64,000 bases of DNA from Dicyema japonicum (Eukaryota; Dicyemida; Rhombozoa; Dicyemidae). Where the stretch lies: positions 2,014,939 through 2,078,938 of the forward strand of contig RDEW01000004.1 in assembly GCA_011109175.1 (NCBI GenBank), read 5' to 3'. A program made the translations under genes and the position numbers. The notes under the pieces were generated by a model. It did no database searches, was not told where the DNA came from, and saw nothing but the letters and a program-made list of their open reading frames with translations. Every line of letters begins with the position of its first letter. Position 1 is the stretch's first letter. Positions 2,554-61,584 of this stretch are shown here, piece by piece.

Positions 2554-3393
2554 TCACTTTAGCCTCAACTTCCATAGTTTAATCGATCCTTCAACGTCTA
2601 AAGTAGCTACTTGATCTCTAATTTTTATTACAATTAAAAAACAAATGTGAGGACACCTTGACGAGTGAAACGGGACGTCCATGCGTAAAAGTTTCGCAAG
2701 AATCAAGAGAGCCTTCTCCCAATGATAAAAGTACAACTGATCCATTGCTTAAGCCCGGTGTGCTAAAATATGGTTCAATGGTAACAATCTCTCCAAGTCG
2801 ACAAATTGGACAGGGTTAGGCTGTCTTAAAAATGTAAAATTACTTTATGGAGGTCATATAATCTAACTTGACCACGTGAACAGGTTGAAACGAAAAATGG
2901 ACTGTTCGGCCGCATTCTTGATTCTACAGTGGAGCTACGATGTGATTCGAATTTTTTACTTTTGTCTATCCTCCAATTTTCTCTAAAATTGATAAATATC
3001 TCAACTATCAATGGAAGATTTGAAATCCCAGCTTATCCTCATTATGTCCCCAAATGAGGTCCCACATGACAGTTCACCATCAAAATAGATCATGCGTGTG
3101 AGATCGGCGTTTATGTGCTGTCCAATATCAATTCTATAACATTTTTTACTAAAATGGAAATTTAGATAAAAATTTAATTCTCAGTCGAGTCGACAGCCCA
3201 TAAAATAGTGATTGAATCTTCCAAATAAGTCAGCTAAAGTGAATATAACAAATACTACAATTTTATCACGTGGACTTCTCATGGCCAAAAATATTACAAA
3301 TTTAAAATGGCCCTGTGATTCGCATAAAACTGTACTCACATTTAATTGTAGAATTTTCGTCCAGCACATCAGAAAAAGATCCGTTATTTGCAT
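2554..3393 (-). CDS. WD40-repeat protein with very short introns
   Basis: Minus-strand exons join into one open frame when these GT..AG introns are removed: 3313-3339 (27 nt), 3234-3258 (25), 2981-3005 (25), 2821-2843 (23), 2763-2785 (23) and 2618-2642 (25). The junction between about 3180 and 3149 has a good acceptor but no GT donor and is unresolved. The product shows at least four WD40-like blades: GHFKFV...SITILW, GDIMRISWDF, FFVSTCSRGQVRLYD and QVATLDVEGSIKLWKL. It ends at the TGA at 2554. The first in-frame ATG after a stop is at 3393. A different-frame stretch (3520-3350, containing KVRAWNVATEYKP) may be an upstream exon. WD40 proteins are scaffolds for complexes; the exact orthologue could not be named. 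Confidence is high for the fold and moderate for the 5' end. Confidence 0.7.
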
Positions 3394-3587
3394 AAAATGT
3401 TGAAGTAGATCCACAAGAATTCGGTTTTAGACAATGTCGACACTTTTTAGTTGAGGGTTTGTATTCTGTCGCCACATTCCAAGCTCTGACCTTAATTTTT
3501 ATGAATGCAAAATCCTTCATGAAACGTTTTGCAGAATCTATCCACTAAAAACCACAAAATCACGTTGCTGCTATCAGGAAACCTGGA

Positions 3588-3870
3588 GTGTTTTTACAAC
3601 ACGTCGAAAACGTAATTATTAAGTGTGAGAAGGGTAACCTTCTGAAGCCTGTCAGGATTGTGGAGGATCAGAAACCATCCAGTCATAAATTCACTCAACA
3701 AACAGTACATAGAACCATATCCTATGCTTGTGCTCCCTGGAGCCCATTCATCTTTTGGAAAAATTCCTTAAAGATCGAAGCTAGATAAAAAAGAGCGTTT
3801 AGAGTTATCCAAGACCTTTCCAGAAGTTCATTGAGGGAGGAACATCGATTAGGTCATTTCTAATAGTCTG
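3588..3870 (+). pseudogene. J element, post-RT segment remnant
   Basis: The frame includes HRTISYACAPWSPF followed by KRAFRVIQDLS and REEHRLGH. This aligns with the region after the reverse transcriptase in the J copy at 58861-59136 (IEPCFSYACASWGPSI). An in-frame stop lies near 3787. The fragment is truncated at both ends. Confidence 0.55.
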
Positions 3871-4084
3871 TTAGGTCCTAATAATATGTCTTAGTTACGC
3901 TTACGTCATCCTGATCATGGTATATGGAGAGATTACGTCATAAATGAACAATATTCAAACAATTTGTTTAATCAATGTTTTCACTAATATTTGAGTTGCC
4001 GGATTGATTTTAAATCCCATTAATTATGCTTTGGTGGAGATGTTCTCTTTGCTTTTCCCATGACTCGACGTGAAAGCTGAGGAT

Positions 4085-4375
4085 CTATGAATAGACACAC
4101 TCCATGCGCGGAAAAAAACGATGAGGGCAAAGGAGAAGAAATACGAAGCCCTACGAGACCGATTCGCGTTCTATCCAATTGTGGTCGAGACAACTGGAAG
4201 AATAAGTGGAAAATCGCTTCGCTTCCTAAAGAAACTTGGACGCCTAGCTACACTAGAAAGCCACGACGCACATGAGACCCGGTTGGCTTCTCCAGTTGAT
4301 TTCTGTTGCAATCGTGAGAGGCAACGCGACGTCGATAATGTCGGTGAGGACCACTTTGGATGAATCGCTGTGTTA
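4085..4375 (+). pseudogene. RT-RLE retroelement, C-terminal end
   Basis: KYEALRDRFAFYPIVVETTG begins the conserved C-terminus found after the endonuclease in RT-RLE proteins. It is followed, after a frame change, by LISVAIVRGNATSIM. The same 3' subfamily recurs at 20778-20960 and, inverted, at 13590-13685. The final 100 bases are strongly conserved among the three. It is 5' truncated, as expected of target-primed reverse transcription. Confidence 0.7.
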
Positions 4376-4770
4376 ATTAATTATTTTTAAATTATTAAAA
4401 TCAATAATAATAAAAAATTTGAATTGCATGCAAATTAAAGTTCGATAAATGATTCATCCTCAAGGTGAATAATCCGAGTGTTTCAATATCTAATAATTCT
4501 GAATAATACGAGCTCCAAGTCTGCATGCACTGTTACAACAAGGAAATAAATTTCATTAAAATCTGACATGAAATTTAATAAAACAGCAGTAATTCCTCCA
4601 ATTTGTCATTAATCGCCCTAAGCACTTAAGAATGTCTACAAGACTCCCTCAAAGCACTCCCAATTACAGGCCAGATTCAGCCGACAGCTTAATTATCATA
4701 AGCGGGAAAAATTAATCGTTCGGTCACTATATTAAAACGAAAATCACCCAAGAACGCCATTTCGTGTGTA

Positions 4771-6189
4771 ATGTCGCTGCTTCTGACACTTTTCCTGACA
4801 TATTTCCATATTTCACAGAGTGGGGTCGGCAAAAAAGGTCTTATTATGTTGTATGGTAGTCTGCTATTCCATAACTAATGGTTTGTCGACTTCTTCTGGT
4901 GTGGATCGACTCAGGTTGTACAGAGGCATATACGGAGGTTGCACCAAAGTGGTGGGTCCGCTGGAAATAACTCATGTGAGCCTCCAGCAAAACGAGACTC
5001 TCAATTTTCTTGGAGGAATTCGTGAGGTTTTTTGTAATGAAGACTGAAGATAACTGACTATCTTCTAATATATAAGGTTACTGCCAAGGAACTGAAATTG
5101 TCCAATCTGAGCTTGATTATGGGAATAATCTCTTCATGGGCAGAGGGATCATGATCTCGGACTCACAAATAGAGAATTTCGACCTTCGATCACTTGCTGG
5201 TTTTATAATTTGATTTCTGATCGTAGAAGTATCCAGGGGATCCATTTATGTGAGGAATGTGAGGGGATTCCGCAGTATTTCAGCCATATCCTTTGAAGAA
5301 TTTGTCGTTGACAAGTCGAGACAGAAGATTGTGACTGATTTTACCCTCGAAAGTTCCATTTGAATAAATAATCCAGCAGAAACATCATGTCCCCCCACTG
5401 CCAAGGCTACAATCACAAATCCTACTGCTGGTCTGAGAATGAGTGCCAGATCTGTTCATTTGATTATCAATATTCTACTAGTTAAAAGACTACGTTGCCA
5501 TAGAATGTGCTGATCAATGCATATTGAAGGGAAGTGCGGCAATTTGTGTCAAATCGAAGACCACGAGGACCTCTAATTATATTGATAAAGGTATTACCTT
5601 TCCCTCAGCCACAGTATCTGTGGACTATAAATTTTCCAAGGTTTCTGTCTCCTCGGGGAGATTGCCTTCAGGAATGTCTGCTTGAGGGTCAGTTCTGGTA
5701 GAACTCCTTATGGTTGTTCTCTGATCATCCTGTATGTTCAACCTACAGAAATGGGAAGATTACTGAAATTACTCATTCGAACATCCACGACTTTGAGGAT
5801 TGCCTAATAATTGAGGGGAGTCTGATTTATTTCCCAACTGGGTACTCATTCAAGGTAAATATTCTAGTGGGACATGATGGCTTCAGATCTTGAAATACTC
5901 AGATCTGTGAGGGCTGTGACGGGGTTCATTTACGTTACAGTTCCTGTGGGGGTTGAAAGTCTTGATTTCCTCGGAAATATTGCTTATGTTGGCGGGGATT
6001 TCGTGTATTCTGTTATTTAACGTTGTAGCCACATGGGGTACTCCATAATAATATTTGACGTGTACAGATCGAATTTGAGGAGTCTTGGTTGGCCAGTCTT
6101 TCAGTTTGAAGTAATTATGCTATCCTCAGAGACTGATTTCATTGGGCGGGTGAATCTCTCTGTCTGCCCTACGTCTTTTTCGGTTTAGA
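4771..6189 (+). CDS. EGFR/insulin-receptor family ectodomain (L1, furin-like, L2), probably broken
   Basis: The ATG at 4771 opens a hydrophobic signal peptide (MSLLLTLFLTYFHIS). Removing introns 4838-4859 (22 nt) and 5027-5049 (23 nt) gives a receptor L1 domain: KKVC start, CTKVVGPLEITHV, IREITDYLLIY. Further introns are 5200-5226 (27), 5353-5376 (24), 5454-5488 (35), 5591-5614 (24) and 5676-5701 (26). They lead through a furin-like cysteine region (SYCWSENECQ, ECADQC) into a second L domain (NIHDFEDCLIIEG, DLEILRSVRAVTGF, YSIIIFDVYRSNLRSLGW). Four one-base frame breaks fall in G or C runs (near 5118, 5391, 5841, 6034). No transmembrane helix or kinase was found before an RT-RLE relic begins near 6430. 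Either the gene is truncated and decaying, or homopolymer errors and undetected exons hide the rest. Family members bind growth-factor ligands at the cell surface and signal through a cytoplasmic tyrosine kinase. Confidence 0.7.
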
Positions 6190-6429
6190 ATTTTGGTGAA
6201 ACTTCCTGAATCCCCCGTGAAACGTCTCGGAATGCTTAAGAGAATTCTTGAATTCGCCATAGAATGGCTTCCACGTTTTTCCAGAAATTGTGAGTTTGTT
6301 GTTAGTTTTTTAATTGTTTGATTGATAGGATAAATAAGAAAATTTATTTGTCCTCCTTTACAAAAAACAACTCCTATGCGAATCGCTGGACAGATTACAC
6401 CTTCTTGACTCACACTCAGCACTATTCCT

Positions 6430-7320
6430 CATGAAAAGAAGTCTTAACATTCAGAGAATCGTTTACTCAGGACAGCTCGGTACTATTCCCAACTAGAGCA
6501 GCTTGAGCACTTTGATTTGTCTTTCCTCAACTCGACGGAGAAAATATTTAATGTCAAATTCGACGATGCTACATGGAAGCAAGCTACACTCCCAGTTAGA
6601 TTTGGGGTCTTGGAATCCGTCGTACTTTGCACGTCTCACCTCCTGCACATCTGTCTTCACTCACGGCCTCCGAACCTTTGGTCAGGATGATTCTACACTC
6701 CCTACCCGAATTCTCAATTGATCAAGACATAATCCACGTACGAGAAGTCTGAAATGCCACCAACACCCGCTGTCTCCTTCACAAGACTGTTAGCGAATCC
6801 TGGACAATTTATTGTGCTGGAAATCATTTGGACTCCTACTGGAATCGGCCAATCAGCACCGACGCGCTTGTTTGCTTTCGGGGGCTTTCCCTGAGAGCAG
6901 AGCTTGGCTAAACGCCATCCCAAATGGAGCTCTGGGAACTTTTCTGGATAAAGAATGCGTTAGAAGTGGTATCTCTCTGCGACTGAGACTGAAAGTATGT
7001 GTACCTCACCCGTGCCGATGTGGTGTCCTGATAGACTGCTATGGCCTGCACCCTCTCGCCTGCAAGAAGAGCGCTGGCAGATCTCCAAGGCACAAGGCTC
7101 TGAATAAAATTGTCAAGTGAGCTATGGATGCTGCTGGATACTCGGCCATTCTTGAATTGGTCGGGTTGTGCAGAAATGACAGGAAACGACCGGACGAGAT
7201 TACTATATTTCGCTTTGAGGCCGGGAAACCACTTGTTTGGGACGTGACATGTACAGATACGTTCGCCCAGAACAATCATCACGAGTGCGCTTCAAGAGCC
7301 TGCTTTGCAACCATCTGACG
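6430..7320 (+). pseudogene. RT-RLE retroelement, thumb and endonuclease part
   Basis: Starting near 6430, NVKFDDATWKQATLPVRFG marks the post-RT region. Then come GAFPESRAWLNAIPNGALG, a zinc knuckle (CRCGVLIDCYGLHPLAC), SPRHKALN, and the nuclease core with KRPDEITIF and VWDVTCTDTF. The CCHC, RH and PD...D order is that of restriction-like endonucleases in R2-type non-LTR elements. Frames change several times. The reverse transcriptase proper is missing (5' truncated). It lies directly downstream of the EGFR-like gene. Confidence 0.75.
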
Positions 7321-9065: not shown

Positions 9066-9329
9066 CAGGCCTTTTACAGCTCTCGCTACAGCGCCACTCG
9101 GAATTTAATATATAGTTATTGTAGATAATGTTAATTTATTGTATTTTATGATTTTTTAATAAAATGTAATATAAAGTAATTTATTATTATATGAAGGTTA
9201 TGACTAGATTAACGTATCCTTTTTCTTTTGCGAGGATCTTAACCAGCCATCCACATGACTACCTCATCGGACTCCTAGTTTGCCTCCTGATTTTCTATTT
9301 CTCTTGAAACAAAATGCTTATGTCCTTCT

Positions 9330-11886: not shown

Positions 11887-12370
11887 TTACTTTTTATGAA
11901 GGTCTGCTCAATTTAGAACCAGATCCACCAATTCCGTTAAATTTGATTGTCTCTGTCATTCAATATGAGACTCCGATAATGTAGGTAAGTTCTTTGGATG
12001 GCTGATCAATCAGGCCAGGTATTAGTGACCAATCTTGTTTTTTTTATACTCGCCTGTGGGTGGTCTTTGAGCAATATTGTCCGAATTTACTAGTCTTTAA
12101 GACTGCGATCCGTGCAGGAAATGTAGAGACGAATTCAATAACGCGTTATTACGTTCAAGATTTTCCTGTGCGATAGATGGGAGATAAGTAGATGGCATCC
12201 TCAGCAATGATAATAATTTTCAGGGGGAGAAAAGAAGATATCGTCGGTAGCGTTTAAGAAGAGTCTTCCTTCGAATATGTCACGTATATAATCTCGCATT
12301 TGCAAAAATTTGACTCCAGTCAATGTCCAGAAAGAGTTACCTTTGTCGACCTCTGTCGCCACAGTTATCT
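11887..12370 (-). CDS. unidentified protein gene with very short introns
   Basis: The minus-strand 3' half splices cleanly. Removing 12065-12090 (26 nt), 12002-12029 (28), 11951-11971 (21) and 11907-11928 (22), all GT..AG, gives LKTNHPQASIKKTRLPSKEL, TYIIGTIKFNGIADLHKK and a stop at 11887. Upstream, 12368-12230 is open and protein-like (SFWTLTGVKFLQMRDYIRD, then EGRLFLNATDDIFFSPP). The link between the halves (about 12230-12091) needs a 50-nt intron or a frame correction at a C-run. No family was recognised. Four introns of the expected size that each preserve the frame argue for a real gene. Confidence 0.45.
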
Positions 12371-13798: not shown

Positions 13799-14547
13799 AT
13801 GCGCATAGGTACTCTGGCTACCTATGCCAATGGAAGGATCGTCAAACGAAGAGAATACCACTTGTTGGTGGGATTCAGGAACGAAGTGGACGCCTCAGCT
13901 TTTGAAGCTGAGGTTAATGATAAAGTACCTTTTGGGCCTGGGGCACATAACTTGTCTCGGGTAATCCCCAAGGAAACTGACTCAGTAGTGCTAGTCTTCG
14001 GGGTCCTCCTTGACTTGGAGATGATGTACTAGATCACATCAAGAAGGACTACCCCACGGCGCACAAGATCGAGCGCTTCAAGAGGGGCAGGAGGCTCCGG
14101 ACCTTGAAGGTCTGGCTTCGATCAGGAGCAGAGGCAGATAGGATCTGCCTAGAGAAGGTACGAATTGGTTACTTTAGGTTCGGTGTGGCCCGAGAGCGAC
14201 CGGTAGCAATCCAATGCTACAGATGCCAAGGATTCGGCCACACCAGCCCTCGGCACTATAAAGAGAAGTGACTAAATTGCTGGGTCACACATTCACGGAA
14301 GGCCTGTCAATCCAAAGTCAGGTTTCTCAAGTGCGTGAACTGTGGAGAGGAAGGACACAGAACGAGCCACTCGAAATGCTCCCTGATTCATAAGGCTACA
14401 GAGAAGGTACTACAGGGGAGAAGGCAGGCACTTTCCTCTGGAGTAACCAGCGATGTAAGCGCTATCCACCATGTGGTAAGTCGCTCTGCAGCAGCTCCGG
14501 CTCAACGTTCCCTAATGCGCTTAGGGACATTGCGCTATGCGATATGA
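13799..14547 (+). pseudogene. G element ORF1, gag-like nucleic-acid-binding protein
   Basis: Frames in sequence encode FGPGAHNLSRVIPKETD, then FKRGRRLRTLKVWLRSGAEA, then zinc knuckles CYRCQGFGHTSPRHY and CVNCGEEGHRTSHSKC. Arg-rich and knuckle segments of this kind are typical of Jockey-clade ORF1 proteins, which bind element RNA. A stop separates the first knuckle from a Cys pair (LNC), and the N-terminal part ends early at 14030. The end overlaps the start of the endonuclease ORF. Confidence 0.7.
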
Positions 14548-15223
14548 AGACGAATGCTTTCAAATGATGTTGAACATCATTTCGGTAAACGTAATGTCCC
14601 TCCGGAGAAGAAGGAAGGCCATCGAGGATCTTCTGGACTCCCTGGAGGTCAACATCTTGGTCCTTAACGAGACAAAGTGTAAGGATACGGCTGCTGCAGA
14701 CTTTAAAGGCTATACTAGTTGTCATCTCTTGTGGAATGTCATACATCGAGGTTTGGATACTAGTGTCTATCGGAGGACAAGTCTAGCAGCAGTCGTCCAA
14801 AGTATATCTCAGTGCCCTCATTGCGAGCTTATATTATTACGCGTTAGACTTCCTAGTTTTACTATTGTCATTGGGGCAATGTATGCCAAGCAGTTGTGGT
14901 TGTGTAAGGATCACATTAAAACTGCCTTCGACATATATCCCGATTGCGTTATTTTTGGCGATCTGAATGCTAAGTATTTGGATTTTGGCTGCTTTACTAA
15001 TAACAAAGGGGGATCGGCACTGCGGAACCTAGCCGGGGATCTTGGGCTCTCCGTTAATACATCAACGGATCCTAACCAAAAGGATTCAAGAGGAGGAGAG
15101 GACTATCTGGGAATGGCCGTAGCCTTTCCATCGTTAATTGGTATGCTGTCTGTACTTCGTGTTCTTAGGGACATCGGAAGCGATCACCGTCAGCTACTCA
15201 CCAAGCTTCAGGAACCTGCTTGA
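14537..15223 (+). pseudogene. G element ORF2, APE endonuclease part
   Basis: IISVNVMSLRRRRKAIEDLL is motif I, LVLNETKC is the QETK-type motif, and VIFGDLNAKYLDFGC is the GDFNA-type catalytic block. RDIGSDHRQL is the SDH block. These are the catalytic landmarks of the exonuclease-endonuclease-phosphatase fold that nicks target DNA. Substitution of E-T-K context residues (N for Q) and a missing W in the N-x-H/W region suggest erosion. The frame then shifts into the spacer before the RT. Confidence 0.65.
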
Positions 15224-34479: not shown

Positions 34480-35028
34480 ATGTCAGATTTGTATGACAAC
34501 TTTAATATATATGGACATAAGTACTTTGGATTTATCCCCATTGATCTTATAGAAGATGGTAAATTCGATTTCTTATCCTCATAGTTGTTAAAATAACGAT
34601 AGAAGAACTCGATAACCTGAAAAATAACTTACTCCCACTTAGAAACGAGGTACTTACTAAGTAACCGAATAAGACCATTTCCGAGAAGGAATGGACTGAC
34701 TTTATCGAGAATGCCTACAACAAATCTATTGAGTCTACGGACGACTTCATTTTTCGATCATTTGTACCATTCTGTCTCATTTAAGGACTTAATTTCGTCA
34801 ATTTTTAAGATCCCCGACCACGTGACGCTGCCGTGTGATAAAGAAGGCGACAAATATACAAGAGAATGCGACCCTTCTGACAATGAAGTAAATGAGTTGG
34901 TGGAAAGATCCTCTCAGGTTGTCATTGTGGTCACTTAGATTTCGCTTGAACTCATCGATAATAATGATAATATAAGGGACCTTGAAAATTGTATTGAGAA
35001 ACTGGAGTTTTTGTTAAATGACGATTAG
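34480..35028 (+). CDS. MIS12: MIS12-like kinetochore protein with four very short introns
   Basis: From the ATG at 34480, removing 34559-34584 (26 nt), 34650-34673 (24), 34764-34785 (22) and 34918-34938 (21), all GT..AG, leaves exactly 152 codons including the TAG at 35026-35028. The 151-residue product has YGHKYFGFIPIDLIEDV near residue 11, matching the N-terminal (Y/F)FGFTPQ motif of MIS12. It also has LISSIFKIPDHVTLPCDKE, matching the conserved F-x-L-R-IP-x-x-(I/V)-LP block, and a Glu/Asn-rich coiled-coil tail (NIRDLENCIEKLEFLLNDD). MIS12 scaffolds the outer kinetochore, linking CENP-C to NDC80. At about 205 residues in vertebrates, the usual protein is longer; here the C-terminal helices are shortened. 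All reading-frame evidence is intact. Confidence 0.8.
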
Positions 35029-35204: not shown

Positions 35205-35229
35205 NNNNNNNNNNNNNNNNNNNNNNNNN
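35205..35229. other. assembly gap (25 N)
   Basis: A run of exactly 25 N, probably a fixed-size scaffold gap. Isolated N bases also occur at 43406 and 62584. Confidence 0.95.
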
Positions 35230-35869: not shown

Positions 35870-38200
35870 CTTCGGAATAATTCCATGTTGAGACGTTCCG
35901 TGGATCGCACCTTTTTGAGGCGAGTTTGCTTCCAATGCTGTGGAGAAAAGTTTCCGTCTTCGCGCCTACAGCTCCAGTTGTTTCCATAGCAATGAGAGCG
36001 AAATGGTAATGGTCTTACTTATGGATCTTCTTAACTTCCGCCTAGTCGGCTGCATCTCCAGGAGAATGCGTCGCTGTCAGCAATCTGGCTCCTGAAAAGT
36101 GTCCACACACGTTGCGTCCCAGACGAGTGATTTCCCGTGGGAGATGGGAATAACGTCATTCCATCCGGCCTCTCTTCGTCGCCTCTGTCTAAGCCCAATG
36201 ATTCCAATTGGGCAGGAAATTCCGCAGCCTTGAAGGCTCGAAAAATGATGTCATTGAGGGCTGTATGGCGTGGGGCTCGACCAGCACTCCGTCGGCAAGA
36301 TAGTGGAAGTAATCTTTCGTATCAACATCTCCGCTTCAACGGCATTTGTGTCTTGGCATATGTCCAGTCCTAGGCGTAGTGCCACCCCGATCCTCAAGCT
36401 GTTTTCGTCAAAGAGGGTCCCAGATGTGGACAAATTGGGCCTCGACCAGACACCATTTCCTCGATGTGCGGCCGACTTAATGCTTTTTAGTCGGTGTTGT
36501 TGGCGCTTTTCTTCGCGGCCTCCAGAGTGCTCATACATGCGATCGAGTCCTAATTCTTCTGGCAAGCGAAGTTCGACGGGAATTCCAAGTCCAACTAACT
36601 CCACAACTTGCAAACTCTGTCAAGCTCAGAGTCCAAGGTATGTCCGGTTGCGTTACGTAGGACTGCTTGGGCCAAGCGACTGCAGCTCGCAAGGGATGAA
36701 AAGTAGGCAGGCAGGGCGGCTTCAAGAGGGAATCTCAACCCAATGGCCCCATTTCTCGCAGGTTGTTTGCACATAGTCCATCCCAGATCATCGAATTTGA
36801 CATTCAGTATTGACTCCGCCGATCGTCTCAGAGTTCCATCAGCGACAATAGTGCATTCCGGTGGTTGTTTCCGAAAGGGCAGCCAGGGAAGTGTACCTTG
36901 TCCAAGGAGGATATGCTGAAACATGAAAGTAGGGATCTGTATTCTTGGCAGGTAGTAGAAAATTTTGGAGATGAGCAGGAAATATTGATCAGTTCCGATT
37001 TTATAACATTAACAATTAAACCCCATTCGTTTGAGCTGAATGGTTAAGAAATATCCTGATATACGTTCTCCCATGGGCCAGTGATTGTGGCTTCGTCCAA
37101 GTCCCACAGGTTGAGTTCACATTTTATGCTTCTTGCCACTGAGTCAGTCGTCATTGCAAAAAGCAAAGGCCCTAGTGGGTCTCCCTGCTGAACGCCTGTG
37201 CGTGAATAAACGATATCGTTTCCGTAAACAAAGGCTGAGTCCGTCCCATACGATAAGTGTACTAGTCGGCCAATCTCTGGAGCTCTCTTCCAACAGGTTT
37301 CTAAAATACAGTCTCTCCTCAGCGTGTTGAAGGCATTTGATATATCAAGCTTCTAGCCTAGCCTTTGGGTCTGGGAATTATTGACGTTGAAGTAACTCCT
37401 CGCGGCGTGGACTGCTGCCTTGAAACCGCCGCTCACTCCCACCCCATGTTGAGTCGGAAACAGCTCTTCAGCAACATTGTGGGAGACTCTCCGGGCAGCG
37501 ATTTTACCAGCAAACCTTCGAAAGTATGTACCGATTGCAATTGAGCGGACACCATCTCCTTTTTGGAATGCCAATAGATGTCCACAAAAAAGATCTCTAG
37601 CAAATTTTGGAATATCACCATTAACTATTCGAGTGAGCAGCAAAATGATAGACGTTAACAAGGCACGGCCGGCTTCAGCAGTAGCTTCAGAGGTTAAGTC
37701 CTTTATATGGCTTGGGCGCAGTCCGTTTAGGCCTCCACAGCTACTGGGTGCAAAAGACTACTTCAAATTCCGTGGCAGTAAATGCCGGGAGGTCTTCTGG
37801 CATTGTCAAGTTCCACGGGTTCGATAGTGGTCCAGGCTGCTTCCTTCTCAATAACTCCAAGACTTCAGGGCACGGCTTCAACAGCGTTTCGTCACAAGAC
37901 ACCACTCTTCAGCTGCGCGAACGTCCCTTCCATTAGTTTTCGGTTCACTCTCTCTCGAAATGTTTTAGAATCTTCTTGTTTACTCCCAGCTTCTGTAGAC
38001 AACTGTTTGCACCGAAATACTTGCTCAGACTCGATTCCAGAGTTTTGCTGCGTTGAAGTGACCAAAAAGGCAGAAGTACTAATCTTGATTATTGAGGCCA
38101 GTGTTCCGTTGCGAGCTTGCTTTGAGGCAGAAATTCCAAGGGTCATAGATGCAAAGCTTAGTAGACGTATCCAAGAGGCCTGGTCGCTGGTGCTGATGGC
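35870..38200 (-). mobile_element. RT-RLE non-LTR retrotransposon, best copy
   Basis: Minus-strand order: KTFRERVNRKLMEG (about 37950); LNGLRPSHIKDLTS and FQKGDGVRSIAIGTYFRRF (RT start); LDISNAFNTLRRD (motif A); TGVQQGDPLGPLLFAM (motif B); LWDLDEATITG (motif C, normally xxDD, here DE). Then ESILNVKFDDLGWTMCKQPA, an eroded zinc-knuckle region, APRHTALNDIIFRAFKAAEF, EERPDGMTLFP and VWDATCVDTF (RLE core), and AMETTGAVGAKTETFLHSIG (C-terminus). Homologous proteins reverse-transcribe element RNA at a nick made by the restriction-like nuclease, as in R2-type elements. Frame changes, a stop after motif A's upstream block, and the altered motif C show it is dead, though less decayed than its relatives here. 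Confidence 0.8.
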
Positions 38201-38334
38201 TGATGTCTTTAATCTATTTTAGAAATCAAATTCGACGGCAAACTCATCATGAAAGCGAAATACGGGGGCTCATCCAGTTAATGTAGAAAGCCCTGATTAA
38301 CTTCATTTATCAGACTTCAAGTTTAATTAATTTA

Positions 38335-40862: not shown

Positions 40863-41091
40863 ATGGCTAACCTGATTTCTTTTAATTTTAATAGCATGCT
40901 TAAGTGATTTTGTATGTCTCAATTTAGCGGGTATATCAGAGATCTTATCGAATATGACAAAATTAAAAAGCTATTATGTGGAATCAATTTTGGTGTATTT
41001 AATTAAGGTACGAATCGCGAAAGATCATGGAACTAACCCAGCATTGATGCTTGAAAAGTTTAATCCAACTATTCTGATACTTGCGAAATAG
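40863..41091 (+). CDS. small 57-residue protein with two short introns
   Basis: The ATG at 40863 starts MANLISFNFNSML. Removing 40904-40927 (24 nt) and 40993-41023 (31 nt), both GT..AG, leaves 174 coding bases ending at the TAG at 41089-41091. The middle exon reads NGYIRDLIEYDKIKKLLCG and the last NPALMLEKFNPTILILAK. The exact multiple of three, the start and the stop support a real gene. It has no signal peptide or transmembrane helix and resembles no family I can name. It stands alone between AT-rich DNA and an inverted J relic. Confidence 0.45.
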
Positions 41092-43539: not shown

Positions 43540-46500
43540 GGTTGAGGTGGTGACGTCCCTCTACTTGCACTATGTCTTCTTCGTATTGCTTACCAGTTTC
43601 TCCCCTCACTCTTGGATCCCTCAACTGCCGAGGCCTCAATCAGTGCTACAAAAAACAACAATTGGCGCGTGATCTGAGTAAATACAACATCTCTGTCTGT
43701 TGTTTGCAAGAGACGAAAATAACCGAACAATCTGCAGAACTGTTTCAGAATTTTTACCTTTTGACCCTCACACCAGACTGCAGGCACTATGGGCTCGGAT
43801 TTGCTGTTCATCGGCACTTGTTTCACTGTGTCTCAAGAGTATGGGCAGTATCTGACCGTGTCGCGGTGTTACAAATCAAATGCGGAAACAAACTCAACTC
43901 AGTGATCTCCATCATAAATGTATATGCCCCAACCGGAGCACGTGTATCAACGAATATCGAAGAACTGGATACGTTTTACTCTACTCTCACAAGTGTGTAC
44001 AACTCACTTTCATCCTCTTACTTTCTTTTTATCGCCGGGGACTGGAACGCCAGGGCCGGAAAAGCAAGACCTGGTGAAACGTGTATTGGATCCCACGGTA
44101 GAAACCGCCGTAACATCCCCGGAGAGGCATTAATACAATTTTGCACGGCATTCAACCTACTCATATGCAACACTTGTTTCAAGCACCCGGCAAGACACAG
44201 GACCACGTGGGTTGGTACCAGAAAAGGCAAATCTGGAAACACAGTCAATATATACAATCAGATCGACTATATTATCTGCAAGCAACATCAGAAGGCCCTC
44301 CTACAGGACTCGAGATCTTACGGTGGACTTGAAACAAGTAGCGATCATAAACTTGTGGTCGCCCGGCTAGTACTTAAAAGAATCCATGGAATACACGGGA
44401 AACACAAAGGCCTTACCTCAGTACGTTTCGACACTGAGAGGTTACGCTACGAAGAATCCACCAAATGTCGTTATAGTGCAGTTCTGAGAGATAGCATCAA
44501 CAGTATTAACCAAAATCAGCCGACAAACAGCTTATGGGATGAAATAGTGGTTGCTATCCAAAACACAGCCTTTAGTGTGCTTGGTCACATCACCAAATCT
44601 CGTCACAAACAATGTAATCCGGATATCGGACAACTCTCTGTAACACAGAAAGAGCTCAGACTCCGGATGGAAAACACAAACGCTCCGGAAGATATCAAAG
44701 TACTGCGCACCCAGAGAGGGAGAGTCTTAACGAAGATCAAACAAATACAAAGATTCCTTGCCAAAAATGAAGCTGAGGAGAAAATCTCAGACATATTAAA
44801 GTACAAGAACGGACCAAGAATGTTCAAAGCAATCCGGCTTCTTAGCAGAGAAAACTGTCCAATTTCGTTAACTGTCCATGACAACCTTGGTCACGACGTT
44901 ATCGGGACCATTAACAAAGCAAACGTTCTGGCATCCCATTTTGACCTTATGTTCAACAAACAGGACGCGGCTGACCAAGCAATGAAATCTCGGAAGTCTT
45001 ACAAGTACACTCTAACTAGCCCTATTACCATATCCGAAACTCAACAAGCTATTAAAAAATTAAATACCGGAAGATCTGCCGGACCAGACTTCATTACTGC
45101 AGAACTTTTACAATACGGCCCGGAGGAGCTAATTGAAATGATTACTAACATTTTCAACCGGTCTCTCGAGGGTGCAGATGAACTGGAACTGGGAAAAGGG
45201 TGGCTAATTCCACTACAAAAACCGGGAAAAAGTAAAGGCCCCCTCACAACTTCAGACCTATTATACTCCTAACCTCCATACGAAAAACATTATCCCTCAT
45301 TGCTTTAAACCGAATAAAGGAGAGGGTGAACATATTTCTTTCGGACGGCCAAAGTGGATTCCGGACGGGCAGGTCCACGGCTGACGTGGTATGGGGGCAC
45401 AGGTGGTATTGTGCCCTGTGCCAAAAATACAAAAAATCTATTGAGATACTTGGTATCGACATGTCCGTGCGTTCGACTCGGTGGACCGTGGAAAACTTAT
45501 GGAAGTGTTGGAGAGTTTTCTACTGCCTGACGATGTCAAAATAATACACTTACTCATGCGGAACACTCAACTTGCCGTCAAAATTGGTGACTCTACCTCT
45601 AACTTTTTTTCGACCTCACGTGGAGTTCCACAGGGGGACTCACTATCCCCGGTCCTCTTTTTTGTCTACCTTGAGGCCGCACTAAGAGAGTTCAGACCCC
45701 TGGTTGGCAACAATTATAACGAGATAATCTACGCGGACGACCTGGACTTTGTTTCTGAGGATATTCAAGTACTTCAACACATGCTTAACGTTCTTCCACA
45801 CGTATTCTCGAAATGGTTCTTAACCGTTAACACCGATAAAACAGAGTTCACAACACTTACACGCAATGATCGAAGATCGGACGAGTCTTGGAGAAAGCAA
45901 AAGAAGGTGGGTTCGCTTCTCGGGGACTCAGAAGATGTTTCTCGGAGGAAAATCCTCGCAATGTGTGCACTAAAGAAAGTATCGAATATGTGGGGTCATA
46001 AGAAGAGGATGGGATTAAACACCAAACTCAGAATATATAAGGCTTTTGTCATCCCCGTCCTGACCTACAATTCAGGCACTTGGGGAATCTCTAAACAAGA
46101 GATGGACCGTCTTGACGCTTTCCACAGGACACAATTGAAATCAGTAATCAAGATCAAGTGGCCTAAGAAGATCTCAAACAATGACCTCTACTCGAAGTGC
46201 AAATCTGGTATACACTATCCGAGGAGATCTTCAGATCAAGATGGAGTCTCTTTGGACATATCTTACGTCTAAATGCTCAAGTACCCGCGAATATCGCCAT
46301 GGAAAACTACCTAATGCATACGGGAGCCGGTTTCCGTGGAAGACCAAGAGTCACACTCTCGACAATTTTGAATGGAGACCTGTCGGCTGTGGGACTGAAG
46401 CTCACTTCCGCAGACGACCTAGATACCTTAAGGGCACTGGCACGAAGTAGAGGGTCCTGGAAAAGGCTGATAGAGAGGATGGCTAGAAATACGGCACAAG

Positions 46501-49189: not shown

Positions 49190-52020
49190 TAGCGTGGCGT
49201 TATGTGGTCTACCAATTCAAAAAATTCAAAAGGATTTGTCTACGCCCAGACGGCTTTTAATACCCTCCTGAAAAGGACCATTAGACCCCTTCCCCCGGGG
49301 TCATTATCGACCCCCCGCCGATGTGTTTCAAGATAGTCCAAACATTCCCGGCGAAAACCCTCAGCCCACTGTGGAGAAAAGAAAATTACTGCTTTCCAAT
49401 TAAACATCAATGGAATTAAAGGAAAGGTCAGGGAACACCGTTCAATCCTGGCAAATCAGAAGATCGACGTGGCCATGATTCAAGAAACTAAACTCCGCAT
49501 GCATGATTCCACTCCTTCATTCCCTGGATACGACGCAATCAGAATGGACCGTAAAAAGAGAAGAGGGGGTGGACTACTTACTCTATTCAAAAAGAACCTA
49601 AAATGCAGAGACATTACTTCGGAAGTGAGGAAACTTGTTGGAAATGACGAGGTTACTGAGGCAATTGGAATCTCGCTTGGGACAACGAAAGGAAGTATGT
49701 GCCTCGTGAATATCTACTTGCCTTCTCCCGGCTCCTGCTCAAAGGATTACGTTATTCCAAACCTATCAAGATTGGCTATCTACGATGAGATAATCACATG
49801 TGGAGATTTAAACGCAAAGCACCCATTATGGTTGTCAACCCAACAGGCCGACACAAGAGGAAAGTTATTGTTATTGAAATCGGACTCCCTAACGATACTG
49901 AACGATCCAGCGAAAAATACAAGGACCCCACTAAGAGAGACGGATCAGCTTACCTCACCGGATGTAACACTCTGCTCATTGTCGCTTTCATAAAAATTGA
50001 TTGGTCAGTCCTCTACAAAACAAGAAGCGACCATAATCCAATTGTGATGAAGGTCATGAGAGAAGTCAGAGTAAAGAGAACACCTGCTAGTTATAACTAC
50101 AAAGCTGCTAATTAGGAATTGTATTGCGCAATCTCTGATGATAGACTGAAGAATTGTTACTTGGTCAGCTTCAAATCCCTAGAAAAAGCGATCAAATACT
50201 TTACTTGCCACAATCCTAGAAGCAAGATCATTGGCTATTCCCAAGCATCGTCTAAACTCCTCTAATGGTCGAGGGAAGTCGGCATTGATCAAAGAAAGAA
50301 ATCACCTCAAATAATCTAATTGGATCACATTAAAAACGAAACTCCGGATCAGAGCTCTAAACAACGAAATAAAGGCCAGAGAGTTCAAGGCTCAGAAATT
50401 GAAGTGGAATCGGATTCTTACAAAGGTAAATCGCAACCGTAGTACCGGAGAAGTGTGGAAAGCCATCCGAAATGTTGCAAAGGGAGAAGAAACTTCCTCC
50501 CGAGGATGACTATACTCAACGAGACGTTAACAATTTGATAAAATTCTACACAAAAATTTCGTACAAGGAACACAGGAAGTCGGAAATGCTTCTCTCTTCA
50601 TGGAGAAAACTGAAGAAGGATTCTTACCCAGTTTACTTTTCGGATGAAGACGTGAAGAATGCGCTGCATTTTACAAGAACAACGTACTCTGCCGGTCCTG
50701 AAAACATTCCAGTAGTATTATTGAAGAAATTGGAGTCGGTTTTCTAAAGTCGGTGTATAACTATTCAATTAATTGTAATGTAATACCTTTGATATGTAAG
50801 CAAGCCAACATCCGACATCATTTAGACCTGTGACATTGTTATGTTCCATATCGAAAATCCTGCAAAGGCTTGTGCTATGAAGAATCAAGGTTTTCTCACC
50901 AGAAAAGGATTTTCAACACGGATTCAAGAGCGATTGTTCTACATCAACGTACCTACAGAAATTAACCAACTTCATTAGAGAAGGTTTTTCAAACAAAGTA
51001 AGGCATTTGAAAACAGTCTTATGTTCCATTGATATTAACAAGGCCTTTGATTCTATTTCGATAAAAATATTATCAAAGAAAATTTTCCAGTCCGAGATCC
51101 CGGGGAAGCTTAAACTTTGGATAACAAATTTCTTAAGTGGACGAAGGGGACGTGTATGCCTCGGAGGACTGAAATCAGTCTCACGTCTTCTCCCAAACGG
51201 TGTCCCCCAAGGATCTCCTTTATCCCCCGCCTTATTCAATTTATACCTGGCAGACCTCCGACACCGGAATCCAATAACGATGTTCTACTCACATATGCGG
51301 ACGACATTGTTTTGGCCTCGCGTGATCGGGATATCCAAAATGCTACAGAAAGATTACAAATTAACCTGGACCGATCAACGCCTGGGTAATGAAGAACCGA
51401 CTCACGATAAATTCCAGAAAGTCGGTCACGTCTATGTTTACTTTGGACAAAAGGTTGGGGAAGATGACTGCCAAGTTAAAATTGGACAACAGTGAAATCC
51501 CCTTCACCAAATATCAGAAGATCCTGTGCGCGACAATGGATACACACTTATGTTTGTCACCACACGTGGCAAACATTTTTCTGAAGTGTTAGAAGAAGGA
51601 TCAATGTATTAAAATGTTTATCTGGAATATGGAAGACAGGTACCTACCCAGTCTTGATAAACATTTACAAGCAATACATCGAACCATGTTTTTCGTACGC
51701 GTGTGCTTCGTGGGGATTTCATTATCATGGACGAAAACTAAGAAAATTGAGGACGTTCAAACGAAGGCTTTCAGAATGACGAAGCGGTGGTCTTGTGGGA
51801 GACACAGAACCGGACCGACTACTCTGGAAGCCCTCATTAAACAAAACTCCGGCATGCGGGAAGATGGCCCTGCAAATACAGTCAGTCGCCCTGTACGAGC
51901 TTGTGTGGGTACGAGGGAGGAGCACCGGGAAAGAATGAGGATTTTGGCGGAGTGCATCGGGATCACGTGATAGTTAGTTTTGGTTTTACCGTGGTCTTGG
52001 GTGTTAAATAAAAATAAAAA
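49190..52020 (+). mobile_element. CR1/Jockey-like non-LTR retrotransposon, nearly full length (family J)
   Basis: It runs from the leader at 49195 to the GGTGTTAAATAAAAATAAA tail at 52000-52020. Endonuclease: LNINGIKGKVREHRSILANQ, VAMIQETKLR, CLVNIYLPSPGS, IITCGDLNAKHPLW, then RSDHNPIVM after a frame change. RT: TVLCSIDINKAFDSISIK (motif A), RLLPNGVPQGSPLSPALFNL (motif B), LLTYADDIVLASRD (motif C), and LTINSRKSVTSMF. The C-terminus carries EDVQTKAFRMTKRW and EHRERMRILAECIGIT. Only one ORF was found, so ORF1 is lacking or unrecognised. About seven frame changes or stops. The reading is otherwise complete. Confidence 0.8.
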
Positions 52021-55865: not shown

Positions 55866-55869
55866 TTGT

Positions 55870-56640: not shown

Positions 56641-56799
56641 GACATGGTTGAAAGTAAATAACTTTTTTCCAGAAAATTCTTCTATTCTATTGTTCAACAA
56701 ATCGCAGAAGCAAGACTTGGTGTTGAGATTAAACAAAATGACATTTCCCTTGCGCCTTTGAATTCTTGGGACGTCTACTGAGTCTGATTTCTACACGCG

Positions 56800-56885
56800 C
56801 CGCTGTCTATTTGAGCAGATTTCGCTATCTTGAGACGTAATATCCACGCAGTCAGAGCGGCTATCGTATGGACTGGATGTCCCCA
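56800..56885 (+). pseudogene. RT-RLE C-terminus fragment
   Basis: LFEQISLS, then RRNIHAVRAAIVWTGC, the counterpart of 42800-42890. Confidence 0.4.
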
Positions 56886-57139
56886 AAAATCCCAATTAGA
56901 TGATTCTTGGAGTGACCATTGACAAGTGGTTCTCAATGCGGCCAGTTTAACATTACAAAATTCATTTCCTCTTTGAACTGTTAAGGATAGTTCTCTCAAT
57001 TAGGAATTCTAATTGGGATAATCTTCCCTTGTCGGGTATTCGTAACTGCAGTTAGAAACTTCTTAAGTATTACAACTTTTGGCACATGACAGATGGTGAA
57101 ATCGTTGACAAATGTCATAAATGCCGTCAACCCTTCTAC

Positions 57140-57235
57140 AATTACTAATGGCTTTTCCAGAACATTGGACTTTCGATCATGAGGGGTAACTCTCATAGGG
57201 TTCTCAATGCCTGCAGGCGATACTGGAGACATTGT
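57140..57235 (+). repeat. RT-RLE 3' fragment (42-kb subfamily)
   Basis: The complement of TACAGGCATTGAGTACGC and the following block of 42106-42150 is found at 57183-57231. The flanks are unassigned. Confidence 0.4.
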
Positions 57236-57544
57236 CTTACAAAATTACTTTTAACTAATTATCTTATTACAAAATTGCTCTACCAGCAGATCAGATTTGT
57301 ATCTTCAGATTAATAAAATAAGGGGATCATTATGTTTGTTAAGTATGGTCATTTGAGAGTATAAAACGCGTTAAGTCTTCTAAACAATTTCATTCACAAA
57401 ATAAAAACATTGATCAAACACAACTCGGATAGGTTTGTGATTCTTACAACAGGCAAAGTTTCACTAGAATAAGTAAATGTTAAAAATTATATAGTCTGAA
57501 GACTATTACTTTGACGTATTTTTCTAACATGAATTTAAGAAGGC

Positions 57545-58585
57545 TCCCTCCTCAACTACTCACCTTACTTGCTTGAAGAAATTTATCAAGGAAGACCTAC
57601 AATGAAAACCTCGGCATCAAAAGACCATTATGTGTTCCATTGAGAAGGCTTTTGACTCGATTCCGAAAAAATTGCTCACTAGGAAGATTTATGGCTCTAA
57701 CATTACAAACAACTTGAAAATTTGGCTTGCAAACTTCCTCGAAGAGTAATTTCACAATCCATATTTTCTGTTACCAAATTTCTGCCGAATTAGGTCCCGC
57801 AAGGATTCTCTCACCCATTCTCTTCAACCTCTTTATGAGACATGCCTTCCCACAGCAGGAACGATATTCTGTTCCTCGCTTATGCTAACGACATTATCCC
57901 GCCAACAAAAGACTAGTGTATCCACACAGCGGGTATCAGTTTACGATAGTTACTGGACAACTTGAACTGTTGGCTTACGAGAAACTATTACACACAAGTC
58001 CTGAAAAGTCGAGCCTATGATTTTTACTTCCAATAGAAGACTAACAAACTAGGCACCTTTTTTACTCTTAATGGAATATAAATTCCCTCCAAAAACACAA
58101 TCAAAATACTGGGGGTCGATATGACTCTTTAATGACCTTCATCTTCTTTTTTTAGCGAAAACTAAACTTAGTAAAAACGCTACTTGGATAATACAAAATG
58201 TTTACACTCAACATTGAATCATTTTTTACATCTAATATATACTAACGTTAATCTACTGCTGTGCGGCATGGGGTACTAACCTATCCTATACCAACCTAAA
58301 AAAATAAACTCCTTCCGAGAAATAGTAACGAGGCCCCTACAAAGGTCCTCTTCCTCGCCACTAAAGCCAAACACAGTTGAGAACTCGTGAGGAGAACGGG
58401 AGCTCAGTTGAAACCTCAAAACTTCCGACAAGTGATTCATCCATACAGAAAGTGTGTCGGCTATCGGGAGGAACACCGAGAAAGAATAAGGCGGTTGCTT
58501 AAGGAGGCCGGGATTATCTGACGGGCCCTTCTCTCTTTTATTTTGTCGGTGATTTTTGTTTTTAAATAAATAAAGAGGATTCTGC
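57545..58585 (+). pseudogene. J-like element, 5'-truncated, third subfamily
   Basis: TIMCSIEKAFDSIPKKLLTR (motif A), NNLKIWLANFLEE, a damaged motif B, a motif C seen as FLAYANDII, and a C-terminus YREEHRERIRRLLKEAGII. It ends with TGATTTTTGTTTTTAAATAAATAAA. Many frame breaks. Confidence 0.65.
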
Positions 58586-58724
58586 AATTTAGTGGTGACT
58601 TATGATTATGTCATAAAGTAACTATAATCATATCAAGACGAAAGCCGTTATAGGCGGCTAACCCTGTATGGACTGAAGAATTATGTTAATCAACTTAACC
58701 CTATTATTATTTTATTTTTATTTT

Positions 58725-60615
58725 ATTTATTTAACCCAAGACCACGGTAAAACAAAACAAATCATCACGTGATCCCGATGCATTTTAACAAAGACCTCAT
58801 CTTTGCCCGTCGTTCTTCCTTCGTGCCCGCGCATGAACCTACAGGACGGCTGCCTATTTTTCAGGGCCCAATTTCCCGAGATCTGGAGTTAATTATCATA
58901 AGGGCCTCCAGAGGCGTAGATCTGGGTCGATGATCTTCACAAATCCAACGATCCGTTACTTTGTAATCCCTCTTTTGCATTTCCTCAATTTTCCTCATAT
59001 TTGTCCCAGATATGGACGGACCCCACGAGGCGCATGCATATGAGAAACATGGCTCGATGTATTGTTTGTATACGTACATCAAAACTGGGTGAGTACAACT
59101 CTTGCATATTCCCGATAAACTTTTCAATACGTTCATTTCAATAGAATGTTTTCTACATAAGGTGTTAAACAGAGATGCATATCAATTGTCACACCCAAGA
59201 TCCTGTGACATCAGTGGAAAGGGATGCCGACCTTGTTTAACTTCAAGGTGACTGTCTTACTTCCCAATTTTTTGTCCGAGGTAAATAGTGATGTAGACGA
59301 CTTCTCTGCATTCACCACGAGCCGGTTTTCCATTATCCAGGTTAATTTGTATTCTTTCTGTGGCCCTCTGGATGTCCTGATCTCGCGAAGCCACCACAAT
59401 ATCATCCGCATAGGATAGTAGAACATCATTATCAGATTCAAGACTCGGGATATCAGCCAGAAAGAGGTTAAATAGAGCAGGGGATAAAGGCGATCCTTGA
59501 GGGACACCGTTTGGAAGGAGCCGTAAGATTGATTTCATACCTCCGAGACAAACACGTCCCCTTCGTCCACTTAGGAAGTTAATAATCCAAAGCTTTAGCT
59601 TCCCTGGGATCTCCGATTGAAATATTTTTCTCGATAGAATCTTCCTCGAGACTGAGTCAAAAGCCTTATGTATGTCGATCGAGCAGAGCACTGTTTTAAA
59701 GTGTCTCGGCTTGGTTGTGAATCCGACTCGAATGAATTTGGTCAATGTTTGCAAGTATGTAGACGTAGATCTCTCATTTTTGAATCCATGTTAAAAATTC
59801 TTTTCTGGTAAAAATTCTTTTATTCTCCCGAGCACAAGCCTCTCCAGAATTTTTGACATTGAACATAGCAGTGACACCAGTCTAAAAGACGCTGGGTCTT
59901 CTCTCGATCTTCCTGGTTTCAGTAGTGGCCGTATTAGAGCCTGTTTCCATAACAACGGTATCACATTCTGATTAATTGAATGGTTGAATATCGACGTTAG
60001 GAAAGTGATACCTCCGTCTCCAAGAATTTTTAATAAGATAACAGGAATGTTATCTGATCCGTGTCAGTATGTCGTTTTTACAGAATGTATTGTATCCCTC
60101 ACCTCTCTCTCACAAAAGAAGAGTGGTTTTGATATTATCTTAAGTTTCCTGCGTGATGGAAGTGCATCAGACTTCATGTGCTTTTTGTGTGAAATTTTAG
60201 TATAGAATTTTATTAAGTTGTTCACATCACTTTGAACATAATCCTCCTCTGTTGAAACTTCATCGCCTTTTGCCACATTTCGAATAGCTTTCCACACCTC
60301 TCCCGTAGTGCGATTTCTATTCACCATTGTAGCCACACGATTCCACTTCGACCTCTGGGACTTGAACTCTTTTGCCTTTTTTTCATTATTCAATGTTCTG
60401 ATCCGGAGTTTCATATCCAAGGTTATCCGGTTAGATATTTTAAGCCAATTTCTTTCTTTAATCAAGGCCGTCTTCCCTAGACCACTCGACGAATTTAAGT
60501 ATTGTTTGGGTATAGCCCTTGATCTCGCTTCCAAGATTATTTGGATAAAGATGCTGATAGCATTATTGAAACTAAGATTACTGATAAACCAGAACTGGTT
60601 GACCAACATATTTTT
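58725..60615 (-). mobile_element. J element, 5'-truncated, best RT domain
   Basis: Minus-strand frames: LDMKLRIRTLNNEKKAKEFK and NRTTGEVWKAIRNVAKGDE (pre-RT), PLLKPGRSREDPASFRLVSL, FKTVLCSIDIHKAFDSVSRK (motif A), LRLLPNGVPQGSPLSPALFN (motif B), DNDVLLSYADDIVVASRD (motif C), VNAEKSSTSLFTSDKKLG, then PVLMYVYKQYIEPCFSYACA. RT motifs are intact within one 165-codon frame (59257-59754). The 5' end at 60615 abuts an RT-RLE 3' end. The tail is the complement of AACCCAAGACCACGGTAAAAC. Confidence 0.8.
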
Positions 60616-60624
60616 TTTAATTAA

Positions 60625-60720
60625 AGATGGCTAAGACAAAAGATTGGAATAGCCATACTCCGAGGGAACTTGTTCGCAATCCACGCAGCAGGCTTCCTCA
60701 ACTGACATTTGTTTAATTGT
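60625..60720 (+). repeat. RT-RLE 3' end (38.8-kb subfamily)
   Basis: WLRQKIGIAILRGNLFAIHA then AGFLN and stop. Nearly identical to the complement of 38770-38860. Severely 5' truncated, with a TTTAATTGTTAAAAA-type end. Confidence 0.7.
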
Positions 60721-60801
60721 TAAAAAAAATTTTGTTATTAAAAAAAAAATTAAAGATTATTTTTAAAATAATTATATTATTGATATAATAACTAAGCAAC
60801 A

Positions 60802-61584
60802 ATGACGACCTCAAAACCAGTCTAAAAGTGGTTACAATCCTTTGATCTAAGCACCCCGTAAGGAAACCAAAATGGTTAATCATAAATGCATAAATTGAGG
60901 GATTTGGCAAACGATTGTGTAGGTGGGGAGATTTTACTACACTAATTTCCATATGACATGAAAGAAAATGAATTGCTATATTCTCATTCTCTGCAAGCAA
61001 GGCGTGAAAACTGGAAGAGAGTCATAAAGGTGGTGATTACTTATTATCAGACATTCAACAAAAACGGATTAAAATTCCAAGAAGTCTATTCGAAAACACA
61101 ATCCACAAGAAAGAACACGCGGCAGTGATTCTGTTAGAATATTTATATGAGAATTTAACAAAATCAAAGTAACATTTATTTTAAGATTAGGCTTTTCGAA
61201 TCAAGCTCTCATATTTACGAGAGTGCAGTTGGGACTGATTTCCTATACCAAACATGTCTTTTGATGACTGCCAGGAAAACAGAATCAAAGTCAATAAAGA
61301 ATAACATCAAATCGGCAGAAATACGACAAAACCGTGATGTAACGAATATTCAAAATATGGTAATTTGTTTAGACATGTAGGCCTTACAAATTATAAACGA
61401 ATGCTCGAATATGCATAAAACCGAAAAAATTGAAAATCCCAAAAGATTTTTAATTTCCCAAAATATTGGAGAAAGGTGTTTACGAAGGAGTGCGCTCCCA
61501 GAAAATCGACCTAAATTTGCTGAATTTAAACAAAATATTAATAAGCTAATAAATGCAAAAAAAATTGTTGTTAATCAAAAATAA
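60802..61584 (+). CDS. SPATA4-like CH-domain protein, short introns, N-terminal half damaged
   Basis: The C-terminal half is intact. LSDIQQKRIKIPRSLFENTI, HKKEHAAVILLEYLYENL and TARKTESKSIKNNIKSAEI match the CH-domain end and the conserved S-KSIK-N motif of SPATA4/SPEF-type proteins. Introns 61169-61190 (22 nt) and 61360-61380 (21 nt), both GT..AG, keep the frame to the TAA at 61582. Upstream, KWLQSFDLSTP, DLANDCVGGEILLH, FPYDMKENELLY and RRENWKRVIK fit the first CH helices. They need a 42-nt intron (60858-60899) and a 21-nt intron (61030-61050), a one-base correction in an A run, and two in-frame TAA codons explained. CH proteins of this group associate with microtubules in cilia and flagella. 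Either a decaying gene or one with assembly errors. Confidence 0.6.

Follow-up and report, generated by a model that had tools for sequence, protein, structure and literature searches.

The genome that holds the stretch of DNA considered here, 64,000 nucleotides (nt) of Dicyema japonicum (GenBank assembly GCA_011109175.1, contig RDEW01000004.1, positions 2,014,939 to 2,078,938) and hereafter referred to as the window, is very probably a dicyemid nuclear genome with U2-type introns of ~22-24 nt plus a minor spliceosome that would remove a few AT-AC introns. An earlier note, written from the letters of the window, had proposed GT-AG introns of about 21-28 nt at six loci, together with a few segments of 31-42 nt, and had added that dicyemids are known for introns in this range. 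On the evidence of sequence the ultra-short introns are real, they are of a kind already known in dicyemids, and they extend well beyond the window. The longer AT-AC class was missed by the earlier note. The sequence shows the lengths and boundaries of the segments, their collinearity with proteins, the small nuclear RNA genes, and the organism group; that the segments are removed as described below, and by which machine, we infer.

Short GT-AG introns in conserved genes

The assembly, which includes the window, comprises 64,672,829 bases in 191 contigs. The spacing of adjacent Pfam matches was measured in the genes for CCT and kinesin, an approach that makes no assumption regarding GT-AG boundaries or length. 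A gap was considered usable if the query gap was eight residues or fewer, as was the case for 42 of the 66 adjacent pairs. The exon gaps are 20-30 nt in 38 of the 42 usable pairs (median 23), and the remaining four measure 11, -1, 1, and 46 nt. An ab initio splicing search with no length prior was then applied to 38 merged regions covering 142,355 bp. With GT-AG as the boundary pair, 39 of 70 segments fell at 20-30 nt, whereas with seven decoy dinucleotide pairs only 3-14 of 42-61 segments did so. Among the eight pairs, the peak appears only with GT-AG.

Trained splice-site matrices yielded 98 segments, of which 75 are 20-28 nt, 21 are at least 30 nt, and two are shorter than 20 nt. The 74 distinct short segments have a mean length of 22.97 nt with a standard deviation of 1.37. 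Lengths divisible by three are not scarce (21 of 75 introns, with 28 leaving a remainder of one and 26 a remainder of two), and in this respect the genome differs from the ciliates named in PMC5014332.

Alignment of the CCT5 locus, which lies at ~714,200-716,000 of contig C181, with three animal CCT5 proteins reveals eight GT-AG introns of 24, 23, 23, 24, 23, 22, 23, and 23 nt. At the single frame break in the alignment, a 17-nt AT-AC gap was inserted by the aligner. The spliced product contains 541 residues and, among the best 120 of 7996 matches, shows 63-66% identity over 97-100% to animal CCT5 proteins of like length. In the Zic gene, at ~1,148,000-1,149,500 of contig C53, finger-coding exons are separated by a GT-AG intron of 26 nt that falls midway through the zinc-finger domain. 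The Zic intron of Dicyema has been reported at such a location, as in other bilaterians (PMC2222250), and the agreement in position with other animals applies at the level of the domain. Taken at the level of sequence, these results support the view that the genes of this genome carry GT-AG introns of about 20-28 nt, with a peak at 22-24 nt in the genes sampled.

The same Zic gene bears on the identity of the organism. It is the only Zic match of the genome, and the top matches of its spliced product, among 4083, are ZicA and ZicB of D. acuticephalum, with identities of 57% over 97% of the query and 56% over 92%, respectively. These best matches, from one gene, place the organism among the dicyemids, as the earlier note had surmised, but not in D. 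acuticephalum itself. Of the 120 Zic matches listed, three cover more than 90% of the query, namely ZicA, ZicB, and an entry labeled Octopus sinensis ZIC 4-like from a 37.7-kb contig. The latter is 78% identical to D. acuticephalum ZicA, and its zinc-finger region is interrupted midway by nine additional residues. It has the look of dicyemid contamination, a 27-nt intron having been translated as those nine residues. For annotators this serves as a warning that short dicyemid introns can pass as coding sequence.

Splice signals and proposed geometry of the short introns

The 5' splice site is weak. Position -1 is G in 76% of cases, +3 is T or A, and each position beyond the GT carries 0.18-0.34 bits. 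Near the 3' end lies a branch-point-like signal. In 39 introns that were picked without a splice-site matrix, the motif TNAY with the A at position -7 or -8, where -1 denotes the final base, occurs 20 times against ~5.3 expected, a count reached in none of 2000 shuffles. In a larger set the motif is present, with its A between -10 and -5, in 53 of 75 introns, a count that is biased by the selection of these introns with the 3' matrix; in 29 of the 53, the A is preceded by 15 bases. By contrast, no branch-point signature is reported for 41 Dicyema introns in the text consulted of PMC2483917. Searches for U2 small nuclear RNA (snRNA) gave at least 25 matches, at least 22 of which score above the cut-off, and the one that was aligned retains GUAGUA. 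Several of the U2 matches are clustered on one contig (C115, 851,000-962,500).

In the arrangement proposed here, the U2-type GT-AG introns would have contracted to a tight length distribution that peaks at 22-24 nt in the genes sampled, and the A of the branch-like TNAY would lie ~15 nt after the intron start and usually 6-7 nt before the last base. The contacts of U6 with the 5' splice site and of U2 with the branch point would then be positioned almost end to end. A separate polypyrimidine tract would not fit between the branch point and the AG. Such introns would be recognized by intron definition.

AT-AC introns and a probable minor spliceosome

A second splicing machinery, rarer than the first, seems to persist in the genome, with introns about twice as long. 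There is at least one match to U12 snRNA, with a score of 85.4 bits versus a cut-off of 53, and at least one to U6atac snRNA, with 37 bits versus a cut-off of 33. The former retains UAAGGAA and the latter AAAGGAGAG. Introns of the U12 type were defined by a 5' site of ATATCCTT or GTATCCTT together with a TTCCTTRAY branch site. The strict pattern ATATCCTTN{8,38}TTCCTTRAY has six matches in the genome versus two for the reversed control. Four of the six are flanked by open frames that together encode a single protein (Table 1), and the other two (L093 and L095) are located outside of a coding context.

All four AT-AC introns start with ATATCCTTT, contain TTCCTTAAY, and end in AC. When read through, each has an in-frame stop, and in three of them the length would also disrupt the frame. 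From the start of the intron to the branch A there would be 40-45 nt, and from there to the end 7 nt, or 15 nt in the PLC gene. The 3' end of the PLC intron is less certain because of a seven-residue gap near the junction. With respect to Pfam, only the joined PLC piece scores above the curated cut-off, and the other three match the expected family below it. In human, every voltage-gated calcium-channel alpha gene and 60% of the PLC genes carry a minor intron (PMC6865273), a comparison that applies to gene families rather than to intron positions. As presently envisioned, the minor spliceosome would excise a small number of AT-AC introns, 48-58 nt long, in which the branch-to-end distance is similarly short and the 5' spacing is 40-45 nt.

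The two intron classes are thus alike in the distance from branch to end and differ in the spacing from the 5' site to the branch, ~15 versus 40-45 nt. The U11/U12 complex binds both sites at once. One tentative proposal, which we hold to be somewhat less probable than its negation, is that intron length is set by the geometry of each spliceosome and not by drift. The U2-type introns would measure ~23 nt (~15 and then 6-7) and the U12-type AT-AC introns ~50 nt (40-45 and then 7 in three of four), with the U11/U12 complex imposing a floor two to three times that of U1 plus U2.

Loci within the window

The coordinates of the loci named in the earlier note, and the lengths of the AT-AC introns found elsewhere in the genome, are listed in Table 1. 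Two of the six loci stand, one of them as a gene model only. At the EGFR-like locus, two joined pieces that omit segments of 23, 27, and 24 nt match Recep_L_domain with E-values of 3.7e-14 and 1.4e-7, an X having been placed at the frame break in each piece. For the three raw frames the outcome is no match, no match, and an E-value of 0.011. The locus supports the presence of short introns as judged from these matches. The splicing search also removed 35 nt at position 5077, and this segment was rejected as an intron given that it codes within the first L-domain piece. Among the longer segments of the window, it alone could be compared with a protein family. When the segments are limited to 18-30 nt, GT-AG yields no fully open path at this locus. 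When 18-45 nt are allowed, eight of 13 decoy pairs also open it, and three of these outscore GT-AG. The earlier note had relied on the frame being kept by 20 or more segments, and this is weak evidence because decoy dinucleotides do likewise.

At the MIS12-like locus GT-AG is the top-scoring pair among 14 dinucleotide pairs, and the coding length is indeed divisible by three, as had been pointed out. The splicing search favored a 44-nt first segment over that of 26 nt. No family or protein match was found for the 151-residue model, and the locus is accordingly supported as a gene model, from its reading frame and splice pattern, and not as MIS12.

Table 1 Features of the window, with positions counted from its first nucleotide, and AT-AC introns of the genome
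Feature	Position	Strand	Length (nt)	Basis
Locus named WD40, unsupported	2554..3520	-		No family match; no GT-AG path of 18-45 nt segments from ATG 3520
Receptor L-domain gene, EGFR-like, with two or more frame breaks	4771..6188	+		Recep_L_domain matches of joined pieces
Candidate GT-AG intron	4838..4859	+	22	Splicing model only
GT-AG intron in first L domain	5027..5049	+	23	Splicing model and L-domain match
GT..AG segment, coding, not an intron	5077..5111	+	35	Retained in L-domain piece, E 3.7e-14
GT-AG intron in first L domain	5200..5226	+	27	Splicing model and L-domain match
Candidate GT-AG intron	5353..5376	+	24	Splicing model only
Candidate GT-AG intron	5454..5481	+	28	Splicing model only
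Candidate GT-AG intron	5676..5701	+	26	Splicing model only
Candidate GT-AG intron	5736..5758	+	23	Splicing model only
GT-AG intron in second L domain	6005..6028	+	24	Splicing model and L-domain match
Locus named unknown, unsupported	11887..12370			Score -12.6
151-residue gene model, named MIS12-like	34480..35028	+		456 coding nt, open frame
GT-AG intron (44-nt reading also in frame)	34559..34584	+	26	Splicing model
GT-AG intron	34650..34673	+	24	Splicing model
GT-AG intron	34764..34785	+	22	Splicing model
GT-AG intron	34918..34938	+	21	Splicing model
57-residue gene	40863..41091	+		GT-AG model, 24- and 31-nt segments
CH_2-domain locus (sperm-protein type), broken frame	60802..61584	+		CH_2 E 6.3e-10
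AT-AC intron, SMAP-type ArfGAP gene, C137:646004-646051, minus strand			48	Structure match 1.7e-8, no gap at junction
AT-AC intron, PLC Y domain gene, C126:181460-181517, plus strand			58	Structure match 1.4e-14, 7-residue gap near junction
AT-AC intron, Cav2-type calcium channel gene, C83:990521-990573, plus strand			53	Structure match 1.7e-28, no gap at junction
AT-AC intron, geranylgeranyl diphosphate synthase (GGPPS) gene, C148:743067-743118, minus strand			52	Structure match 5.7e-10, no gap at junction

The introns proposed for three of the other four loci lack support, and the fourth locus, the 57-residue gene, is undecided. The CH_2 piece was joined by hand with one 42-nt GT..AG segment omitted and with X placed over one in-frame stop and one frame break. 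A second in-frame TAA occurs just upstream of the piece, and both TAA codons are found within 60802-61171, a region that is otherwise domain-like. Reassignment of TAA was considered and dropped because the CCT5 model reads open under the standard code. A forced GT-AG model of this locus gave no CH match. For the 57-residue gene there is no homologue above the cut-off and no path with segments of 30 nt or less, and when segments of up to 45 nt are allowed the decoys score like GT-AG. The name WD40 likewise lacks family support, the hand-joined pieces having no match to a WD40 family. With 18-45 nt segments no GT-AG path leads from the ATG at 3520 to the stop at 2554, and paths from other ATGs need segments of 19-49 nt. 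At 11887-12370, four decoy pairs outscore GT-AG. The other segments of 31-49 nt in the window may be compensation for frame breaks.

A window-wide gene scan (score above 6) returned nothing at the six loci except an intronless EGFR-like fragment. It found mainly long intronless open reading frames, several of which are retrotransposon-like by reading of the sequence. A spliced model at 49202-50115, over a retrotransposon-like frame, was taken as an artefact. Long open frames are located at 14525-15223, 36251-38222, 43554-46272, 49337-51970, and 59257-60630, some on both strands of one stretch. Named by the look of the sequence, they resemble the endonuclease and reverse transcriptase of retrotransposons lacking long terminal repeats. 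A short run of N at 35205-35229 means that the contig has at least one gap. Apparent frame breaks are observed in conserved genes, namely CCT5 (L022, near 2218), two Pax copies (L088 and L089), and the window near 5121, and in both Pax copies the break falls close to one shared conserved stretch. In our judgment, the breaks in CCT5, Pax, and the EGFR-like and CH loci are likelier to reflect assembly indels or decay than programmed frameshifting.

Alternative explanations

Several points weigh against the interpretation of the short introns given above. Of the 98 modeled segments 21 are at least 30 nt, the length statistics were drawn from CCT, kinesin, and WD40 loci and represent a non-random sample, the larger TNAY count carries the selection bias already mentioned, and by themselves only two of the six window loci speak for short introns. 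It could be argued that the short introns of the window are mostly artefacts, with the free removal of 18-45 nt GT..AG segments opening decayed genes or an assembly that bears indels. The opening of the EGFR-like locus by decoy pairs at up to 45 nt, the coding nature of the segment at 5077, the poor scores of the CH, WD40, and unknown loci, and the frame breaks in CCT5 and both Pax copies are all in keeping with such an explanation. It cannot account, however, for the 20-30 nt peak in conserved genes, which was found without any splice-site assumption, nor for the restriction of that peak to GT-AG among eight pairs, and it fails on the CCT5 and Zic results. We regard it as unlikely. Far less probable is that the organism belongs to another group of miniaturized animals, for example the orthonectids, in which short introns arose by convergence. 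A small genome of 64.7 Mb is compatible with several reduced parasites, the published value for D. japonicum being 67.5 Mb with a GC content of 36.7% (PMC6736024). The orthonectid intron median is 57 bp (PMC6543705), and not only are the top Zic matches from D. acuticephalum, but the third match of greater than 90% coverage, among the 120 listed, is dicyemid-like as well.

The minor spliceosome calls for similar scrutiny. The AT-AC segments might be chance matches or substrates of the major spliceosome, with the U12 and U6atac genes being relics. Only four cases were obtained, two strict matches out of six lie outside a coding context, three of the four joined pieces fall below the Pfam curated cut-off, the PLC alignment is gapped near its junction, and the U6atac score is barely above its cut-off. 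Searches with broad U12 patterns yielded no excess relative to the control (83 versus 105, and 28 versus 20), and the GT-type U12 pattern is not enriched, with 3 matches versus 5 in the control. Of ten loci inspected from the 83 broad matches, two were good (L081/L083, the same as L090/L091), and these later appeared among the strict matches. None of the six inspected from the 28 was supported, although L098 has open frames on both sides with no Pfam match. Against this stand the common start, branch motif, and end in all four introns, the in-frame stop in each with a frame shift in three, the ungapped structure alignments over the junctions of the Cav2, GGPPS, and SMAP genes, the motifs retained by U12 and U6atac, and the established presence of minor introns in the human calcium-channel and PLC families. 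We consider chance or relic status improbable, slightly more so than the artefact explanation for the window, and favor a minor spliceosome that would still act on these few introns.

Comparison with known systems

Ultra-short introns of D. japonicum were reportedly described by Ogino in 2010. Such introns have been in print for dicyemids since 2007, namely for D. acuticephalum (Aruga 2007), Dicyema sp. (Zverkov 2019), and D. japonicum (Lu 2019), and because of this the short-intron finding was already known, as the earlier note had stated. Published values include a mean of 26.2 nt for 16 dicyemid introns (PMC2222250), a median of 27 bp for Dicyema sp. (PMC6543705), a mean of 38.2 bp for D. 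japonicum (PMC6736024), and 24.93 for 41 introns in a table row, read without its column labels, of PMC2483917. The genome described here shares with the dicyemids in print a narrow GT-AG range near 20-30 nt, a weak 5' signal, and several introns per gene in the modeled genes. The mean for the 74 distinct sampled segments, however, lies below 26.2, the median of 27, and 24.93. A narrow length class is also a feature of the tiny introns of ciliates and nucleomorphs (15-16 nt in Stentor, ~25 in Paramecium, and 18-21 in the Bigelowiella nucleomorph). In Stentor the branch A is likewise at a fixed distance, the 10th base (PMC9505925), and here it is near the 16th. The host in the present case, unlike those organisms, is an animal.

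The AT-AC introns resemble U12-type AT-AC introns in their start, branch motif, and end, in the accompanying U12 and U6atac genes, and in their calcium-channel and PLC hosts. They differ from U12-type introns generally in being only 48-58 nt, and shorter ones are known, with a median of 39 bp in Blastocystis (PMC10639083). No dicyemid minor spliceosome was found in print, subscription papers and supplements lying outside of the search. There is none in the text examined of PMC2483917. The terms "U12," "minor," and "snRNA" are absent from the main texts of PMC6543705 and PMC6736024, as are "U12" and "minor" from that of PMC12249979, and "dicyem" is absent from the main text of the survey PMC10639083. 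On the basis of the sequence evidence, what is added here is the peak at 22-24 nt in sampled genes, below the published dicyemid values, the branch-point-like signal, and the coexisting AT-AC class of U12 type near 50 nt.

Implications

With respect to short introns, the results bear out a peculiarity already on record and make it more precise, the sampled genes falling below the published dicyemid averages. Dicyemids are tiny parasites of octopus and squid, with introns that rank among the shortest in any animal known. It is less expected that so reduced a parasite seems to retain a minor spliceosome, with two classes of introns at two sizes. If true, this would provide one animal in which the smallest workable intron for each spliceosome could be measured side by side.

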